From Thuidium tamariscinum (lineage: Eukaryota > Streptophyta > Bryopsida > Hypnales > Thuidiaceae), in NCBI GenBank assembly GCA_947034885.2, contig OX344754.2:16324501-16388500 (forward strand): a stretch of DNA of 64,000 bases. Reading direction: 5' to 3'. The translations under genes and the position numbers were made by a program. Shown here piece by piece: positions 559-35,900 of this stretch; positions within the stretch are counted from its first letter, which is position 1, and every line of letters begins with the position of its first letter. The notes below the pieces were generated by a model. The model ran no database searches. It was given only the letters and a program-made list of their open reading frames with translations, and had not been told where the DNA came from.

Positions 559-2220
559 CTGCAAAAGACACTTGTATTATTTTTTATCACATATTGCATG
601 TTGATCAATTTTTTGACCATAGCTTTTGCATATTGACTCCAAATGACTCAAAATTCATAGAAAAGTTACTTATGACTATTATACATGTTGTTTAATATTT
701 TAATTTTTAAAAAATAGTTCAATATTTAATAATAGCCCCCAATATTATGTCACATTTGTCATTTAAAAAAAAAAGTATTACCCAAAGAAACAAATTTGGA
801 ACTAAAATTCGGAAGAAATGGTCTTGTAGTGTACTTTTATCTACTATTCAAAGGATTTCCAAAAATAACTAAGTATATATTTTGTAGAAGTTTACAAAAT
901 GAACCTCTTTTTACTTGCATTTTCAAATATGGAAAAATCTATTTTCGTGGATTTTTGGCAAATGACTTCAACTATATAGTTCTTACAAATGTCCACTTTT
1001 TATTTTATTTAATTAAACATTATCCTATATTTTATTAGTAAAAATACTAAACTATCTATTTTCTTGAGATTTGGTATTTTTTATATTCTCCTATCTAGAG
1101 ATTTTTTTAAAGAATTATCCTTTGTTGGTTACCTTCATCTTAACCCCTAAAGGACCTTTGTCCCCTTAAAGGACAAGATGGATTTTGGGCATGTTCCTAT
1201 GACTTCAAGTTTTGATGAAATTTTTTGAAATTTTCTCAGAAGATAGGGAAATTGATTAGCTTTGTAGGAATATAATTTTTTATTTCAATTGGTGCTCATG
1301 AATAAAATTTATTCCACAGAAAGTCCAAATTCTATTAGGTGGGCAACAAATTTTTTTTGCAAGAAGTCAAAATTAAAATTTTCAATTTTTTTTTTCTGAA
1401 ATAATATATTTTTGACTATATGTGAAGCTTGGTTCATTCTATTTCGACTTGTAAAGTTGTAATGAGAAAGTTATGGACAATCTTGTTTGGGCATTGTAAA
1501 CAACTTCTTCAAGAAAATAATTTTTAGGATTCATTTTTTATGCAATTTTACAATTTAAAAAAAAAATTGTTGGACAAGGTTATGTTTATTGGCTAGAACA
1601 ATCTCATTATTGGAATTGTTATGTTCTTATGTTTCAATCCCATCTTAGAGCTATTAACCATTTAGTAATTCTTTCAATCCCGCTTTCAATCTTGAATGTA
1701 ATTCTATTTAATAATCTTTTAAAGAATGGTAATTAAGTGATTTTTTGTGAATTTTTTTTCCTAAACTTTGAACTCAATTTCTTAACACAAAAATTTATAA
1801 ACTCAAATTCTATAATGCAGATTTTTTTTACAAATGATGACCAGTCAAAGTCATTTGAAATTGCACACAATAGTTCAAAAATACTTTTTTTTTCAACTTA
1901 TAATGCTCATATCTTTCAATCTGTATGGTCAAATTTCATGAAATTTTTACCACATGATCTTGGTCAAGTTAACTACAAGATCCTACAATTTGATTTTTTT
2001 CAATGTTTTTTTTGTTTTCTTGGGTGAATGTAGCAAAAATGGCAGTTTTGAGAGTTTTTTGACAGAAAAATGACCTTGGTGTTTTAGAAATTAAATGTTC
2101 ATGCATTGGCCACAGTTTAAAATTTTAAGAAAAAAATCTTCCTCATTTTCAAGTATCCCAAAAAAAATTATGAACACTCTTACGAAATGCAACAAATAGT
2201 ACACAAAGCATTCCTTGCAA
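559..2220 (+). repeat. AT-rich repeat family Q, copy 1 (split by TTAA element)
   Basis: This is one of four clear copies of a repeat about 700 bp long, with further copies at 7165-7876, 15263-15959 and 47871-48569. The best copy has inverted ends TTGCAAGAAACACCTGT / ACAAGTGTTTCTTGCAA. This copy begins with GCAAAAGACACTTGT and ends with TTCCTTGCAA. It is interrupted at 1140-2094 by a TTAA-flanked element, and sequence matching the other copies resumes directly at 2095. No intact reading frame is conserved between copies, so it looks like a non-autonomous DNA element. The superfamily is not determined. Confidence 0.6.
1140..2094 (+). mobile_element. TTAA-flanked non-autonomous DNA transposon (piggyBac/Sola3-like)
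   Basis: The left end reads TTAACCCCTAAAGGACC and the right end is a decayed inverted version finishing in TTAA at 2091-2094. The interior resembles the elements at 20857-21789 and 60598-61529. It lies inside the repeat that starts at 559. The equivalent unoccupied site at about 7290-7300 (minus strand) reads CTTCATCTTAAAGGTGC, and here the two flanks read CTTCATCTTAA and TTAAATGTTC. A single TTAA therefore became two. TTAA duplication is known for piggyBac and Sola3 superfamilies. No transposase frame is present. Confidence 0.75.
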
Positions 2221-6600: not shown

Positions 6601-7164
6601 AATACTAAAATGACAAAGGTTTAAATCATTTTTGAAGGTGTGATTTGGGCCATTGGCTCATTGAGTAGGACTTGTCAGATAAAAGAATAACAATAATTAC
6701 CTAAACCTTGACTTGAAATTTTTACTAAAGAAAATCTCCTAAAGTTTATAGAGGCATGTTTGTAATGCTATAATGATGTAGAGGAAAATGTCACTTTCAT
6801 GTCTAGGTTTGAGTTTTAAAAAAGTCAAATTACAAATTGAATAATTATGTGGTTGCTAAAAGTCTTTTGTTTTCAAAGAATAGCCAAGAAAATTTCAAAA
6901 ATTATTACTAGTTCCTTTCTAAGGTTATAATTGATTGTGTGTTTAGGGATGATTCTATGAAACACCTAACTAATAGGGGGTTACATATTGTTAGTATATT
7001 ATCATGTCTTCTACCATAAACATTTGAATAGTAGAGACAATGGATTTTAATTTTAAAGGAAGATGAATAATTTATTTTATTTTTAAATTTTAAATTTTAA
7101 AAAATCATTTTATTTAGCTCATTTTTCACAATTATGATAGGGCTTTTATGTTTTTTGAGAGTGA
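6601..7164. other. AT-rich spacer, nothing recognisable
   Basis: This stretch is very AT-rich, without a convincing open frame, tRNA, or element ends that I could pair. It is presumably old transposon-derived sequence. Confidence 0.4.
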
Positions 7165-7876
7165 TTAGAAGAAACACCTATACTATTTGTTGTGTTTTGC
7201 AAGAAGACTCATGATTTTTTCTCGAGTTTTTTTTAGTACTTTAAAATAAGGAAACTTTTTTCTAAATTTAAAATTATGGCCAATGTATGCACCTTTAAGA
7301 TGAAGGTAACTACCAAAGGAAATTTGTTAAGAAAAATCTCTAAGTAGGAGAACTAGAAAAGTGCCAAATCTCATGAAAATAGATACCTCAATGTTTTAAT
7401 TAATAAAAAATAGGATCAACTTTTAATAAATCAAATAAAAATTGGACATGTATAAAAACTTTATAGAGATGGCCATTCACCAAAAAGCCAACCAAAATCA
7501 TTTTTTACATGTTTTGAAATGCAAGCAAAAAGAAGCTCACTTTATGGACTGCTACATGACATGTAATTAGTTATTTCTTAAAGTCCTCTATATAATAGCT
7601 AAAAGTGTACTATAAGACCATGATCTCTTCTAAATTTTAGCTCTAAATTTTTTTCTTTGGATACTTTTTAATTCAAAAAATCCAAAATTGGCAAGTGTAA
7701 CATAATATTGGGGACTATTATTAAATAGTAAAACATTTTTGAAAAGATGTACAATAGTCATAAGTAGTTTCTTTATGAGTTTTGAATAGTTTGAAGCCAA
7801 AATACAAAAGTTATGGTCAAAAAATTGATTTGTATACAATATGTGATAAAAAAAATAGTACAAGTGTTTCTTGCAA
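7165..7876 (-). repeat. AT-rich repeat family Q, copy 2 (reversed, uninterrupted)
   Basis: It starts with AGAAGAAACACCTATAC and ends with CAAGTGTTTCTTGCAA. It is the reverse complement of copy 1 and keeps the unoccupied TTAA site (CTTCATCTTAAAGGTGC read on the minus strand near 7290-7300) into which the element at 1140-2094 inserted in copy 1. Confidence 0.65.
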
Positions 7877-14932: not shown

Positions 14933-16218
14933 TTGACCCCTAAGGACCAAGAAATCCATTTTGGGCTTTTAAATACTTGAGCACTACTCATTATAATATC
15001 ATATGTGAAGCTTTGTTTTATGTCATTCCAATAAATATTGCAAAATTTAGAACATTATATTAGATTTCATTGTCAAATAAGATAACAACTCAAAAATATA
15101 TTTAAAAAAATATAAATTCTTCTTTTTATAGCTTGATACCTATTGAAAATCATTTGAACCATTCAAATCCAAATAATGTCATAAAAGTTATTAGGAATTT
15201 TATTTTGTATGCAATGAAGGTAGAAAAATCATATAAAATTATTTTTAAGCCCCCAATTGGATTTTGCAAAAAACATTGTTACTAATTTGCATCACACAAT
15301 GTGTACTGATCTATTTTTTGGCCATAACTTTTGTGTTTCGATTCTAAACAATTCAAGGTTTATAGGAAAGATACTCATAACTATTATATACCTTGCCTAA
15401 TTTTTTTGTAATTTTAAAAACAATTAACTATCCAAAAAAAGACCCCAATTTAATGTCACATTGGCAATTTGGAGGTTTCAATACTATTTAGCACCCCAAA
15501 AAATGAATTTTGAACTAAAATTTGGAAAAGATGGTCTTCTAGTAGACCTGTAGCTAATAGACTAAGGAATCTTTCAAATAATTATTTTTATATGGTATAG
15601 AAGTCCACAAAAAGAGCATCTTTCTGCTTGCATTTTGAAACATGTAAAAAATGATTTTGGTGAGTTTTTTTTGGTGAAAGGCCATCTCCATAAATTTGCT
15701 AGAAATGGGTTGTTTTAATTTTATTTTTTTTCTTATTTTTTCTAATTAAAACATCAAAGTATGTATTTTCTTGAGATTTGGCACCTTTCTAGTTCTCCTA
15801 CTAAGAGAACTTTTCTATAAATTTTCTTTGGTGGTTATTTTTGTCTTAAAGGTGTATAAATTAATCATATTTGTTTAAATTTAAAAATTTCTAATTTTAA
15901 AGTACTCCCCAAAAAATCATGAAAACACAACAAAATCAATAGGAAGTGTTTTTTACAATCACCTAGTTAAGAAATTTTTCAAATAAAATTATTAATGATA
16001 ATACTTCATTTTTTAGAAGGATTAGAATTTGCAATTGGTGGGGATTGTATCCACTCTAAAATTTTGTGAAAAACGGTACTTGAATTACATAAACAAAAGA
16101 TCTTATGGTTGAATTTGCTTAAAAATAAATATCGATAAAGATTTTGACCTTTCTTTCATAACAAGTATTTTGAAGTAGGTCTGAACCTCAAAACTCACCC
16201 CAATCTTTTAGGGATTAA
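14933..16218 (+). mobile_element. TTAA-family element carrying a nested family Q repeat
   Basis: The left end (TTGACCCCTAAGGACC) continues with a CCATTTTGGGC segment like the other TTAA elements, and the right end is CAATCTTTTAGGGATTAA. The interior at 15263-15959 is a copy of the ~700-bp repeat Q, so the TTAA element was there first and was later invaded. The left TTAA is mutated to TTGA. Confidence 0.5.
15263..15959 (+). repeat. AT-rich repeat family Q, copy 3 (nested)
   Basis: It starts TTTGCAAAAAACATTGTTACT and ends GGAAGTGTTTTTTACAA, and the interior matches copies 1, 2 and 4 (for example TTATGGTC-like, GGCAATTTGG and CTCCTACTAAGAGAAC segments in the same order). It is inserted in the TTAA element 14933-16218. 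Confidence 0.55.
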
Positions 16219-19740: not shown

Positions 19741-20045
19741 TTAACCCCTAAATGCCGCTAGCACCATCCTGTGGCGTTTGGATGAGCTAAACAAAGACTG
19801 AAAGTGTTTTTTCATTCATTTTTAGCTTGTTGACCTTTCATAGAGGGTTATGAAGAATACCTAATTGAGTTTATAGTCTTGCTAGTATTTGTTTTCACAT
19901 GAAAGAGAAGTAAGTTAAAAAAAAGTGGATGACAAAATTTGCTATTTGAGTGTATTTTGCTCTTTGCTCTAAATTTAAAATTTTTAGCGTGTAGGCATGG
20001 GGATGCTTTTACATTACACGTATGCAATAACAAAGTGCCAAATTT
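19741..20045 (+). mobile_element. TTAA-type element R, partial copy
   Basis: The left end is TTAACCCCTAAATGCCGC. The following ~300 bp matches the flanks of the nested element at 20759-22423 (for example TTTATAGTCTTGCTAGTATT versus TTTATAGTCTAACTAATGTT). The right end was not found, so the copy is truncated or highly diverged. Confidence 0.5.
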
Positions 20046-20758: not shown

Positions 20759-22423
20759 TTAACCCTCAAATGCTGCCAACGCCATTCCGTGGCATTTGGA
20801 TGACTTCCCAGGGCCAGGAGACAAGGTGAACAATATTTTTTTCATTCATTTTTTGTTTAACCCCTAAAGGATCAAGGTGCCCTTTTTGGCAACATAGCGA
20901 TTTTGGGCAGGTACGTGTGACTAGAGATTTTGATATTTTGGAAACAAACTTTAATAGAAGGTGTGAACAAGGAGTATCTTCAAAGCCCAACAATTTTTGT
21001 GGCTTTTGACTACATGGTTGAAAAGTTATTGCATGATATGTTGTTTGTTTATCAACTCGGGTAGTTGAGGTAGATTAGAAAAAATCACTTTTTTTGGATA
21101 TAAAAATGTGAAGTTGGTTTTATAGATTTATATATAGGTGGAAAGCTTTGAATCATTCCATTTGGATTAATGAGTCAAAAGTTATGAAGAATTTTAGTTT
21201 CCGGGTAGTTATGGATTCTCTACTCTAAAAAAACTTTGAGGTCCTTTATTTTACTCAATTTTCAATATTTTTGAAAAAAATTTAAAAAATTGGGTGTAGA
21301 TTGTTTATTACAACATTTGAACCATTGGGATTGGCATTTTTCAATTCAACAAATAAATTGTTAACATTTTAGTGTTTTGAATCATTCTCTACTTCTTTCT
21401 ACTTACTATTTTTTTGTACATGTTGTACAATTTCAAATGATTTGAAAATTATCAGGCATGTAGACAACTTGAATTAAAGAATGAATCCAAAGAGTAACAA
21501 CCATTTAAAAAAAATATTCATACAAATGTGGCCTTCTGAATCACAACTGCCCGAATTTCTGCAGTGATAAAAAAAAATGACTTTTGCAACTTCAAACACT
21601 AATATCTTGCAATCTACAAGGCGAAACTTTTTGAAATTTTTTCTACATCTTCTCAAACTAGTGCACTAAAAGATCCTATAGTTAAATTATTCCAAAAATG
21701 TTTTTTTTCTAAAATTTGATAGTTGTCCTAGAAATGATAGTTTTGGAGTAGTTTTGGTGAAAACATAGTCAAAAACCTTTAGGGGTTAATGACCGTTCAT
21801 GTTGAGTTACAAAGAGTCTTCAATAGAATTTATAGTCTAACTAATGTTTGTTTTCATGTAATTTAGAAATAATTATGGAAAACAGATGGCAAAATTTGCC
21901 ATTTTAGTGTATTTTGAAAAATTGTGTAAATCTGAAATTTCTCCTTGAAAATGACATTTTTTGAGTTTGAGCTCAACTAATGAAATGAAGGTCTTCTCTT
22001 CTAGTATCTACTTCAATTGAAAATTTTGAAAAAATCCCTCAAAATGAAAATTTTATTGCAATTTGAATTTTGGCTTCATTTGTAATATCTAGTGCATCCT
22101 AAAAATAGGTATACATGGAAGTTGAGTTTACACCATGATGTTTGTCACTATAATTTACACACATGGTGAATTTTTCAGATTTTTTGAGAGAATTTTATAT
22201 TTTCTATGATTTTTCCTTCACTTTCTCTTCAAAAAATTTCTTAAAAATCAATTTTACTCAAAAAATTCTGAAATTTCTGGAAAGTGCAGAAGACATATAC
22301 TTTCATCTTTGAAAATTAAAACAAAAAAATTCCAGGCATGATTGGTTCCAAAATGGTAACAAATTGAGTGATGAGCAACGAAGCTTCCAACGAGTGGTCA
22401 TAGGCCCAACAATTAGGGGTTAA
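20759..22423 (+). mobile_element. TTAA-type element R, fuller copy with a nested TTAA element
   Basis: The ends are TTAACCCTCAAATGCTGCC and CAACAATTAGGGGTTAA. Without the 933-bp insertion at 20857-21789 it would be about 730 bp. The two flanks of the insertion align continuously with the partial copy that starts at 19741. It has no coding capacity. Confidence 0.6.
20857..21789 (+). mobile_element. TTAA-flanked DNA transposon (piggyBac/Sola3-like), 933 bp
   Basis: The ends are TTAACCCCTAAAGGATC and AACCTTTAGGGGTTAA, inverted over about 14 bases. It is homologous over its length to 60598-61529 (reverse) and to 1140-2094, with conserved subterminal words such as GGCAACATAGCGATTT. It is inserted in element R, whose sequence continues on both sides. 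Reading frames are short and broken; no transposase is visible. Confidence 0.75.
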
Positions 22424-25618: not shown

Positions 25619-26201
25619 TTAACCCTTTAAGGACCGTGGTTGATTTGGAGGGTGGACACAATTTCTTCACACAATTCTTGAAAAGTCCAATTTTGTAACC
25701 ATTCTATGGATGTAATTCTAAATCAAAGTGTATGAATTGGTTCTATAGGACAAATCCTTGAATCAAACAAAAAATGAAACCAATCCAATGGTTCACATCC
25801 TTGTAATTAATTTTCAAAGATTAATGTCTTGCAAATAGCCTTTGGTAGTGGTGCTAAATAGGATTTTCCACAATTGGGTATAACTTTCACTAAATGCTCC
25901 AAAAATTGATCCTAAACCTTCCAATTAGTTCTTTCACACATATTAGTAGTCATCTTTTACATTCATTATATATATTTTTGCAATATTTCACATATGAAGG
26001 CCTAGGCAATTCAAGTTCAAACAAACATAGCTAATGCATTTTTGCACGCATTTCCTTGAAAGTAGATTTGTTATGAGTGTACAAATACACTCTAATTGTG
26101 TTGTTCTCTAAGTTTTTTCAAATGAGATGTTCTATGATTAATAATAGACAAAAAGTGCAAAAATCAACCAAGAAGTGATCGACTGGTCCTTATAGGGTTA
26201 A
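25619..26201 (+). mobile_element. TTAA-flanked MITE, 583 bp, well-preserved ends
   Basis: The left end is TTAACCCTTTAAGGACC. The right end, read inward on the other strand, is TTAACCCTATAAGGACC; 16 of 17 positions agree. TTAA is present at both borders. The interior differs from the 930-bp elements, so it is a second sub-family with the same end signature. No coding capacity. Confidence 0.75.
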
Positions 26202-29907: not shown

Positions 29908-32900
29908 TCATGTGTATTTTTTTCTCCTGCGCCTCAGTTTCCCTTTTGTTAGGGGTGTTTTCCCTCGCACTGATGCTGTTGGTAAAGTGGCATCTGTAGT
30001 CGAGTCCATATGCTTGGAAGCTCCTGGTGAAAGCACATCTGTTTGATGCGCTTTATTGGAGCTGAGCATTCTTCGATTGGGGCTTAAGTTTTTCTTAGAC
30101 TTCTTCCACTTCGCCCGTGGCAATGGTACTTCACTTTCCTGCTGTTCTTTAACTGGTGACTTGCGAGTCTCTGGAATTGCTTCTTGTATCCTCGAACCCT
30201 CACCTCTCTCCTCCCCTTGCTCCTTGTTGGACTTGTCTTGTACATTCACTTCATCTGGCGTTACCGTCTTATTTGAGCCTCCGGCTCTATGTCGCTTCTG
30301 TGGCCTTTCATCCTGGCAAGACCAACAACCAACACTTCAAAAAAACAAGGCCAAAAACTATATATCGTGAAGAGTGATCAAAACTAATCGTGCAGACGAC
30401 TCGTCGAGTAAGCTTACAATTTTCGGTTGTATTAAACTTGGGGATCGCACAAATTGTTGGGCAAACGGAAAATATAAAAGTTGCGCACTTAACCCTTACA
30501 GGACCAAGCATCCACAAATATCCAATCCAAACTCTGAACTTGAAGATGACATTTCTCGCTATTAAGCCCAATTAAAAAAGTGCAGTGGTCAAAGCTAGAG
30601 CGCGCTTCACTTTTTCAGATCTTTAGATTCTAAGTATTGAGCATTTTATTTCTTTGGCCAGCTCTAGGCATCAAGGGCCAAACTACACAGCAGAGTATGT
30701 TCACCTATCAAATTTCCAAATTCAAAGATTAACGTTGTATGAAAGTAATATATCATATAGTTTCTCATTGTAACTTGTACTTGTCTGACAAATTTAGTAT
30801 TTACAAGATATTTTGTAATTAATTAGATATTTTGAAGGGATCGGTATAATAAGAAATTGAACATTTCAGGCATAATAAAAGCATCTAGTTTTAGGCATGA
30901 GAAATATTAAAAATACATGATAAATCTTGATGGCCGAATTGTGCATGAAAGCGTAGTTTGACTTTATGCGAAGGATCGAAACATTTGACGGTTAAGCGCT
31001 AAGAGTTACCTCCACCAGTGCGAGACTTTTCCATGGTATCCACTTGTTATCCTTCCACTGAAAAGAAGGTCTTAAATTAAACGTCTTTACAACCTGTGTA
31101 TCGTTTTCTTCTGCAGCCACAAGTTTTCAATAGTTGTTAATAGTAGAATCAATCATCGCTATTACTAAAATCATTAATACAGAAAACTTCCAAAGCCCAA
31201 CTGCAAAAAACTATGGTCCACGGGGATTAACACATACGAGATTTGCTCAAAGGGCAGTGAAATGATGCAGTTAGAGTAATATTCGGATATTCACAGAACA
31301 GTACATACTGTGCACTCACAGCTGGGAGCATGATAGAGTTCCATGTACAATCAATTTCTACTGATTGCCTGGTACCAACGTACAGTCTCTCACAGATTGA
31401 CATCCAGGTAATCACTTCAAGGATATAAGTTCAAACCTGGGAAATATACTGTAGCCTTCGTTGGATCTAGATCGTTTATTTCCGCTACAAGTCCTTCCCA
31501 CCACCTAAACTCAAAAGTGCCACATAATCAACATAGAGAGTATGCAGCGTACAAGATCACACAAAGAACTTTCGAGGTGACATTTTGTTCTGCCAACTCT
31601 TAATGAAATGCATAATTCTACAAACTAAAAGTAAGCAGTTCGATGCTGCTGCCCCCAGAGCTCTCAGCAAGCAACACGACCAAGCTTCTAAAGAATATTA
31701 GACCTCCATACTCATACTCACTCCAGCTATCACAAACATTGTGTTCCTATCTGCTCTTGTTTTCATCAGATTTCTCAACATCAACTAAACCACTACAAAA
31801 CCTAGCATGTAATAAATCAACGCTAACAGTATGCACAAAAAGAACAAAATTGAAGAAAAACTGCAGAAAACTTACGCATCTTGAATGAAAGCATCCACTT
31901 GGTCACCAATGTGCCAAGTTTGAGAACCTAGTGCTACACGCCGTCGTTTTCTTGAGCCTGCTTCACTGAATATGGTAAATGGGTGCACAGGCCGGGCATG
32001 TCTTCGTGGATGGTATGCATCGAACCCCTCCATAAGAGGAAACCACTCTCTTACGTTTGCTTTGCCTGGAATCAGTACACATTGTATAGCATCAACCAAC
32101 CTGTAACACAAGAAATAGACATTCTAAACCTTCACAAGATGATTATGAAGCAACTAATGTACTGGTTCACTACTAAACATACTCAAAGAATAGAGTTAGA
32201 CTAGAGAATGAGAATCTCTGCTATTTGGACAAGCACTCGGAGTAATGGACAATTTTCTATCTGTGAAAGAACCCGAGGGTAGGTGTGAAACTGGCTTTGT
32301 AACACGCTAACATTGGAATAAAAATTATACAATTGTCGCGATGTCTTAACAGAACCTAACTAAATTAGAAAGCAGCTGTCCACCTGAGAAACTGAAAGAA
32401 AATTGAGAACAGACCATCATCAGTAAGGAGATCGAGTAACTCCACAAACGCCTTATTCGCAATTACTCTCAGAACTGAGCCAGAGAACCAGCCTCCTCTC
32501 AGACCTACTTCGTCAATCATCACCTGCAAGCCAACAGAACAAAATCGGCACATGTTAGACCGTCAAGCAGCTTCATAGGCCTCGATATTGATACGATCAA
32601 ACACGGACCAACAAGAACAGAGATCTATAGCCCCAAGCTGTCGGTCTGAGTCTGAAACAGATTTCACGCACCTCTACAGCAGAACCTTCCTGTAAAGCGT
32701 TATCAGGTACTTCGAGTGTGTTCGCGACAGTTTCGGGATCTCTTACGTCCCGAGACGCTGTGTCCTTCCCAGACGTGCTTACAGTTGTAATCTGTAAATG
32801 CTTTCCACTACGAGTTCTTCCCCTTGCATTTCCATCTTGAAGATTCTTTCGACTTTTAGGCACTTCATCCTTTTTGTGCAGTTCATTCTCTGGATTTTGG

Positions 32901-35900
32901 GCCGGTGCTGTAGCAGGTATATCTTCCCCGGTAGTGCTCACAGCTCTACTTTCAATATGCTTTGCACCACGCTTTTTCCCTCGAACAACCTTACGACTCT
33001 TGAGTGCATCATCCTGTTTGAGCATTTCATTCTCAGGACTTTCGGCAGCTTCTCCAGCAGGTACATCTTCCCCGGTGGTGCTCACAGGTCTGTTTTCAAT
33101 ATGCTTTGCACCACGCTTCTTCCCTGGAGCCTTCTCTTGACTTGGGGATACGTCGTCTTGTTTATGCACTTCATTCTCAGGACTTTGGGCCGGTGATGTA
33201 GCAGGGACATCTTCCCCGGTAGCGCTCACAGGTCTATTTTCGGTATGCTTCGTACCACGCTTTTTCCCTCGAGCATTCTTTCGACTCGCGGATACATCGT
33301 CTTGTTTAAGCGTTTTATCCTCAGGACTATGGACCGATGCTGTAGCCGGTGCATCTTCCCCGGTAGTGCTCACAGGCCTATTGTCAACATGCCTTGCTCC
33401 ACGTTTCTTACCTCTTGGATTCCTATCTCGAACATTCTTTTGACTTTCCAAAACTTCCTCAGTCTCATGCGTTACATCATCTGAACCCTGGGCCGGTGCT
33501 ATGGCAGGTGGGTCTTCCCCCGGAATGCTCAAAGGTGCATTTTCCATGTGCTTTGCACCGTGTTTTATCCCTCCTGCATCCTCATGTTGAACATTCTCTA
33601 GACTTCCGGAAATGTCAACCTCCTCATGCATTACGTTCTCTGGACTTTGAGCTGGTAATGGAGGAGATGAAACTCGGACTATTATCTTAGCTCTTTTGGC
33701 TCGGCTAGAGACTCCCCGTGATCTTCCTCGGCCTCTTTTCATCTTTCTTGACCTTGGACTGATGCGTTTTTCCTGTTCAAATGGTTCAGCCACTTCATTC
33801 GTAAGAACCACTCCGTTTTCATTCGATGCTGCCACGTGGTTTTCAATTGCTGCAGCCACATCGTCTTCTACCGCTTCGTCATTATTCTTGATAACCTGTT
33901 CACGTACGTCATTCACTGCATCCAAATTATCATGATATGTGGTATCCTTTTCCTGCACGTTTTCCATTTTCTCCAGCCCGTCCTCTTCATGCACAACATC
34001 GAACTCATTGACGACATCCATCTCATTCAAAGCACCCACTTGATCTTCTCCATCAAGTCCATCCATTTCATCAGCTGCATCCATCTCATTCGCTTCATCC
34101 CCTTCATGCTCTACAACCGCATTCGCGGGTTTCCGTGACCAAAATTCATTCAAACCAGCAGTTTGTATCATTGGATCTGCTTTCGCTAGAACAGCTCCTG
34201 CTTGTGAAGCAGCTTCAGCTGCTTTTCCAGCAGCTTGTACAACAGATTCCAGCATTTCAGCTCTTTGTTGCGATGGAGTGACGTTCTCTCTGGAGTTGCT
34301 GAAAGGAGTTTGCTCCCAACCATCTACCTGCAATTGCTCGACGATCAGCTGGACCCACTTTCAAGAAGAAACAACAGAAGTTCAATCACCTGTTCAATCT
34401 CTCTAACCTCATGCAATACACACGTGGGTAAACGGGATGCTTTTCATCCTAATGCCAATCAGATATTACGCAACCTCAGAACTTAAATTTGTACCTGTCA
34501 CATCCAGAGGCAAAGTCTAGTTCACTTAGTTCTGCTTCTAAGACGAAGAAAATTGTGTGAAGTTTACGATACTCGCACAAACATCTAGTCAGCACCTACG
34601 TAAGGTACTTTATGAATTATGGATTCACTGATTCATTGCTTCCGACGTGCTTAGAAAAACTGAACATGTTCAAAAAGAACCTGCAGTGTCCTTGATCTCG
34701 ATGAACCAAACTGAGACGTTCTTGCATCACCAAGCTGGTAGCCGCTAGCTTGAATGAAGGCATCCATGGACACCTCTGCAATTGCCCGGGCAGCCTCAAC
34801 AGCAGCTTTCGCAACCGAAGAAGCAGCCGCAACAGTAGCGGCAACAGAGGCCAACCGGGCATCCCTTGCCAATCCTTCTTCTGAATGATCTTGGGAATGC
34901 AGCCGCGCCCACACCAGGTGGCTCTGAGCAAGGGCGGAGGTGGCAGTTGTAAGTGCATCCTGCGCACTGGCCTGTGCCAAATCAAGATGCTTATCATTAT
35001 CAAGAATAAGATTCTCAGTGGCCGGAGAATCTTCTGGCACAAATGAGTTTGATCTGGCGTGGTCATATGTTATCAACAGTTGCCCTGCGGGTGTAATCTC
35101 TGTCTCATGTGCTAAACTATTATCCCTAAAACCAGCTTCTTTCCCACTTGACGAGGGCTCTCCTGGAGTTGATAAAGTTCCTGAAGAATGTAACTCGTCT
35201 TTTATAGCATCCTTGATGCTCGGTAGATCTGCAGCCCCTGAAAATGGAGACATTCTAGCCTCCGCATCTTGAGAAGCGGATGATATCCTCGGCAAGTTCG
35301 ATTCTGTAGGAATGTCATCGATGCATGTATTCCCACATTGCACACCTTGAGAACCACGTGGAACATCTTCGAGTAGCACGGATTCGGCTCCTGCAAAGGT
35401 AATGGAACATTAATACCAGCATTGGATTCACGACACACTGAATGAAGGAAAAACGGAGAAAAATAAGTAAAGGTAAGGAGTTGAAAACGATTTCATTCCT
35501 CACTGGTTATATCTTCTTACTTTCTGTCCGAAAGCAAGAACAATGCTAACATTTTTCGAGGTATTGATCATGTAAGAACCTTACTGTAGCGTGCAGCTAC
35601 AAAGCTTTCTATTTACAAGTACAAAGCTTTTGACCGACGATGTTTCCGGGGAAAAAAAAGAAAAAAGAAGCGATTGTTCGAGACAGTTTAATAGAAGCTA
35701 AAATAAAAATCTACTGCACCATGCACTGCAGTATACTTGCACCAACAATAACCTAAAGTTCAAAGGAAAGTATCCCTGTGATCAATCTGCCTACGAGAGC
35801 AACTAAACGCTTCCCACCGAATTGGAAAGTTTGCAATGATAAATGGAAAACAACATATGCACGACTTGAATCACACCTATGGCCGATTCCAAGCAAGCGT

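Follow-up and report, generated by a model that had tools for sequence, protein, structure and literature searches.

The window (the whole stretch of 64,000 nucleotides that was analysed) carries at positions 1140-2094 an old, mutated copy of a non-autonomous piggyBac element of about 930 bp, that is, a large miniature inverted-repeat transposable element (MITE); comparison with other genomic copies and with empty sites confirmed this reading. The features of the element and of the empty copies of its host repeat are as follows.

1140-2094, plus strand: non-autonomous piggyBac element (MITE-like), old copy, 955 bp with both TTAA counted.
1140-1143, no strand: left copy of the TTAA target duplication, from the sequence and the empty-site comparison.
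1144-1180, plus strand: left terminus CCCCTAAAGGACC, followed by a degenerate GTCCCCTCGGGGGAC hairpin, from comparison with other copies.
2056-2090, minus strand: right terminus, decayed; the minus strand reads TTTCTAAAACACCAAGGTC where copy L002 has CCCCTAAAGGACCAAGGCC.
2091-2094, no strand: right copy of the TTAA target duplication, from the sequence and the empty-site comparison.
7227-7385, minus strand: uninterrupted host repeat (empty site) with a single TTAA at 7295-7298, from joined-flank alignment.
15748-15926: empty host repeat, exact TTAA, from joined-flank alignment.
48068-47903: empty host repeat, site reading CTCA, from joined-flank alignment.
Locus L022, 9594-9785: empty host repeat, exact TTAA, from joined-flank alignment.
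Locus L031, 2893-3086: empty host repeat, site reading TTAG, from joined-flank alignment.

The TTAA-flanked insertion and the uninterrupted host repeat within the same window had both been described in the initial annotation and were confirmed, with CCCCTAAAGGACC directly after the left TTAA and the uninterrupted repeat on the minus strand. No stop-to-stop frame of 140 aa was listed within the element, and its non-coding nature, inverted ends and high copy number are those of a MITE, although 955 bp is long for this class. Two relatives, MITE copy L002 and the coding element L027 described below, have the GTCCCCTCGGGGGAC hairpin intact, while it is degenerate in the window copy. At the right end, the window copy reads GAAATTAA where the fetched copies read GGGGTTAA; its right terminus has therefore decayed and the CCCC start is kept at the left end only. 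As compared with the column majority of nine other copies, 142 of the 920 compared positions of the window copy were substituted, and 53 of these 142 substitutions were C to T or G to A, a pattern that would be expected for an old methylated copy.

The window element was searched against its own genome (363 Mb, 19 contigs), giving at least 46 matches, at least 40 of them near full length. The 40 near-full-length matches, taken from the best 40 of 6,112 candidates scored, include the window copy itself, and the other 39 were 79-81% identical to it. The family end TTAACCCCTAAAGGACCAWKG occurred exactly 1,287 times in the 363-Mb genome, while the reversed pattern used as a control was absent (0 occurrences); these end counts and the 40 near-full-length matches indicate that the window element is no chance pattern. 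The seven relatives L002-L008, which match the window copy best and are no random sample, presented the ends CCCCTAAAGGACC ... GGTCCTTTAGGGG, that is, inverted CCCCTAAAGGACC at both ends, and their flanking tetramers were TTAA in 13 cases out of 14 and GTAA in the remaining one. Nine copies (L002-L008 and the inner copies of the nested loci L019 and L020) were 96.6-98.3% alike among themselves, and the window copy was 84-85% identical to these nine.

The host had been described as a plant, in agreement with the LEAFY gene of the same genome, which has the look of the moss type II. Six SAM_LFY matches were obtained, the best of them in a LEAFY gene reading KMRDYVHCY and GAWCQACY, where the D and the C presumably mark type II. 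According to a passage of PMC6588583, the LFY of Bryopsida is type II, a type present mainly in mosses, with one liverwort example. The genome contains eleven contigs of 17.5-54 Mb, and the LEAFY type together with these 11 large contigs makes a moss the most likely host, probably a pleurocarpous one. Two small contigs, one of 103 kb that carries a tRNA-Cys within its initial 3 kb and one of 115 kb whose first 3 kb have 23% G+C, may represent two organelles. The start of contig C18 had also been considered as a tRNA-Phe, but ARAGORN did not call it, and a tRNA-Cys was found further in. Elsewhere in the window, positions 32843-33414 hold a tandem array of four 144-bp units that are 77% alike; it lies within a minus-strand open frame of 587 aa and is an in-frame coding repeat.

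The TTAA proved to be consistent across copies. The 22-base end CCCCTAAAGGACCATTGTCCCC occurred exactly 385 times in the genome (reversed control, 0), and TTAA stood directly before 373 of these 385 ends (97%; reversed control, 0), in line with the 13 of 14 tetramers of the seven close relatives. The duplication itself was evaluated by joining the flanks of ten insertions around one target and comparing them with the window and the fetched loci, counting alignments that started before query base 88 and ended beyond 117. Related empty sites with one 4-bp target were obtained for four of the ten insertions (the window copy, L003, L007 and the inner copy of L019), while for the other six none was present in the window and fetched loci compared; for three of the four, at least one related empty site read exactly TTAA.

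The cleanest case is the window copy, whose joined flanks matched positions 7385-7227 with 81% identity over 164 columns (E 3e-37). Four further empty copies of the host repeat were present among the window and fetched loci, two of them with an exact TTAA and the other two altered at the site, so that TTAA was read in three of its five rows. L003 gave nine rows, which contain overlapping loci (L010/L025 and L017/L026), with TTAA in eight and TTTA in one, the right arm being mostly 15-18 bases. L007 gave four rows, with TTAA or TTAAA in two and gaps no more than 15 bases from the site in all four. The inner copy of L019 is inserted into another member of the same MITE family, and its 13 rows, in which the window copy is counted twice (as L001 and as the window), read TCAA in 11 and were gapped in two. 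Since the uninterrupted members read TCAA, the TTAA of the outer L019 copy would be a C-to-T variant. For the nested copy L020, no clean empty site was found among the loci compared.

Ends and empty sites show that the elements insert at TTAA and duplicate it, a hallmark of piggyBac. The second hallmark, inverted ends starting with CCC or CCY, was seen in L002-L008; in the window copy it is kept at the left end, the decay of the right one being a detail that the initial annotation lacked. A Tourist-like MITE of the PIF/Harbinger superfamily, a recognised plant class according to a passage of PMC10004981, could mimic this picture through a 3-bp TAA or TTA duplication. In that case the fourth base would be free to vary, while the full TTAA was present at 373 of 385 exact ends, the empty sites fit a duplication of 4 bp, and the coding relative is a piggyBac element; we rejected PIF/Harbinger on the length of the duplication and regard its chance of being correct as negligible. 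Kolobok elements, which have a transposase of their own, also duplicate TTAA and are known from some green plants sensu lato, according to a passage of PMC9587614. The same passage gives their termini as 5'-RR ... YY-3', while the ends observed here are 5'-CCCC ... GGGG-3', and Kolobok was rejected on these terminal bases as extremely improbable.

The superfamily was assigned from a coding relative. L027, on contig C7, is an element of 5,143 bp that carries TTAA at either end; its open frame of 774 aa matched DDE_Tnp_1_7 (PF13843) with an E value of 2.1e-79; no other Pfam family was found in this protein at E 0.001. Among solved structures, its best match was 6x67 (E 8.9e-33), which we take to be the Trichoplusia ni piggyBac transposase, followed by piggyBat (9c0f, E 2.1e-22). 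The L027 protein has aspartates aligned with those of the TIDE, DNxFTS and GVDxxDQ motifs of 6x67; the catalytic aspartates of the T. ni enzyme are, we assume, D268, D346, D447 and D450.

MITE copy L002 matched the left end of L027 with its positions 1-95 (97 columns, 78%, E 3e-16) and the right end with its positions 679-931 (264 columns, 72%, E 5e-32), and the two terminal matches agree in order and orientation. Both were present in all seven better-preserved MITE copies (left, 76-78%; right, 69-73%), and the window copy gave weaker matches, again at both termini. The ends are therefore common to the MITE family and to an element coding for DDE_Tnp_1_7, and since L027 shares both termini, the superfamily is piggyBac. 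Taken with the TTAA duplication, the family of copies and the coding piggyBac element with matching termini, all of which were observed, it is nearly certain that the feature is a non-autonomous DNA transposon of the piggyBac superfamily in a moss.

The initial annotation had proposed a piggyBac-like or Sola3-like element and a search for a coding relative with the same ends. Such a relative exists in L027, and of the two names only piggyBac is retained. Sola3 is a distinct DDE superfamily that also duplicates TTAA, so the duplication seen here is compatible with it. However, the coding element with both termini in common carries DDE_Tnp_1_7 and no other Pfam domain at the same cut-off, and with a piggyBac element of matching ends at hand Sola3 is unnecessary; we consider it a very slim possibility, if slightly less so than PIF/Harbinger or Kolobok.

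Assignment to piggyBac does not make L027 the parent. The middle of the MITE (about 580 bp, positions ~95-679) had no match of note in L027, the ends alone matching, and no parent with ends nearly identical to those of the MITE was found, the best termini being 69-78% alike. As this compares with about 97% within the MITE family, L027 is a cousin and is unproven as the source. A search for transposase relatives, in which the best 58 of 884 candidates were scored, yielded a 60%-identical relative on C7 with a nearby end, TTAACCCCTAAAGGCCCAAGAGTCCCCTCGGGGGAC / CCCCTAAAGGCCC, that is closer to the MITE than that of L027, and an end was seen in one of four regions flanking two further transposase relatives, whose positions were guessed. 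In L027 itself, the right end is doubled at 7064-7082 (GGGGTTAATTTGGGGGTTAA), possibly as an imprecise or nested end.

As to its movement, the window element, which has no transposase of its own, would have been moved in trans by the piggyBac transposase of a coding relative. A transposase of the L027 lineage would recognise the ends (CCCCTAAAGGACC plus subterminal sequence), after which the element would be cut out and joined into a TTAA, duplicating it. The terminal matches suggest that it was a transposase of this lineage that moved the MITE, and also that the MITE may have arisen from an L027-like element, having gained or kept an unrelated middle (~95-679).

The piggyBac load of this genome was evaluated with the PF13843 profile, which gave at least 116 matches (the best 116 of 658 candidates scored), all of those listed over the cut-off and many without an internal stop, while it gave hits in none of 14 control genomes. 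We took 18 of these loci with their flanks for end pairing. A pair of TTAACC-type ends with at least 14 of 18 terminal bases matching enclosed the transposase in 15 of the 18 loci, a generous figure in that the best-matching pair was chosen among candidate ends; for L021 and L025 the end chosen was probably that of a neighbour, nearer ends being present. The other three fell below the threshold (L026, 12/18; L037, 8/18; L033, none). The paired coding elements measured 4.95-6.25 kb in 14 of 15 cases, and in five that were examined the main open frame had 625-1,214 aa. Frames of 1,023-1,214 aa lie at L022 4100-7168, L034 4107-7748 and L024 4151-7531; in the 532-731 residues that precede DDE_Tnp_1_7 in these three predicted frames, no other Pfam family was over the cut-off.

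Two pairs of coding elements were nearly identical: L021 and L022, of 5,096 bp and at different sites, differ at two bases, and L034 and L035, of 5,094 bp, differ at 16, which points to recent movement. In addition, the 12-mer TTAACCCCTAAA was present at 19,746 genome sites as compared with 111 for its reversed control, a count of an end signature and not of elements or of genome share. Together, the transposase matches, the near-identical copies and the excess of TTAACCCCTAAA suggest a large and recent piggyBac radiation. We further consider it probable that this moss radiation is very large, multi-family and recent or possibly ongoing, that it comprises thousands of non-autonomous derivatives and native plant transposases, and that piggyBac is a leading DNA-transposon class here.

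Other piggyBac-like sequences lie in the window. Positions 20857-21789 (933 bp) hold a second TTAACCCCTAAAGG...CCTTTAGGGGTTAA element, which by its subterminal sequence belongs to a different piggyBac-like family, and positions 25619-26201 hold a 583-bp TTAACCCTTTAAGGACC ... GGTCCTTATAGGGTTAA element that is probably another piggyBac-type MITE. The plant telomere repeat is CCCTAAA, and a frequent piggyBac-like end, CCCCTAAA (for example, window 1144-1151), resembles it.

As a transposon for gene transfer, piggyBac has found wide use, and work on it has focused on animals. A moss in which many transposase frames are open, some copies are nearly identical and non-coding derivatives are abundant would offer a natural setting for the study of piggyBac control in a land plant, would allow one to ask how MITEs borrow a piggyBac transposase, and would be a source of plant-adapted transposases. 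The remark in the initial annotation that piggyBac is no routine component of plant annotations was partly right, since PiggyBac does appear in passages of three papers. It is tabled among the superfamilies of all taxonomic groups studied in a passage of PMC4438587, a paper that mentions land plants 14 times, although that passage does not name them among the groups; it has a row in a table of the C-fern genome (1230, 122417 and 0.00, which we read as copies, bases and per cent; passage of PMC6890710); and it is listed among the angiosperm MITE superfamilies (passage of PMC10004981). From these entries, piggyBac in a plant is not new per se. A passage of PMC5505980 states that the piggyBac system was yet to be tested in P. 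patens, and among the matches listed, largely from open-access literature, there was no account of an endogenous moss piggyBac. The element is of a known kind, in an unusual setting and abundant.

The ends of piggyBac itself are inverted and start with CCC. The moss elements resemble T. ni piggyBac (6x67) and piggyBat (9c0f) in the TTAA duplication, the CCC-starting inverted ends, and a homologous DDE_Tnp_1_7 transposase, in which the aspartates align and the C-terminus is rich in cysteine. They differ in the moss host, in the high-copy non-coding derivative, in the size of the coding elements (4.95-6.25 kb in 14 of the 15 paired), and in open frames of 625-1,214 aa, in the five examined, as compared with a solved chain of 594 aa. 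Like the PiggyBac MITEs of angiosperms (passage of PMC10004981), the window family is short, non-coding and grouped by its ends and target duplication; the passage names the superfamily only, while here a coding partner with common ends is present in the same genome. With the C-fern (passage of PMC6890710) it shares the occurrence of PiggyBac in a non-flowering land plant, but in contrast to that table row, the moss genome holds full-length transposase matches and thousands of ends.
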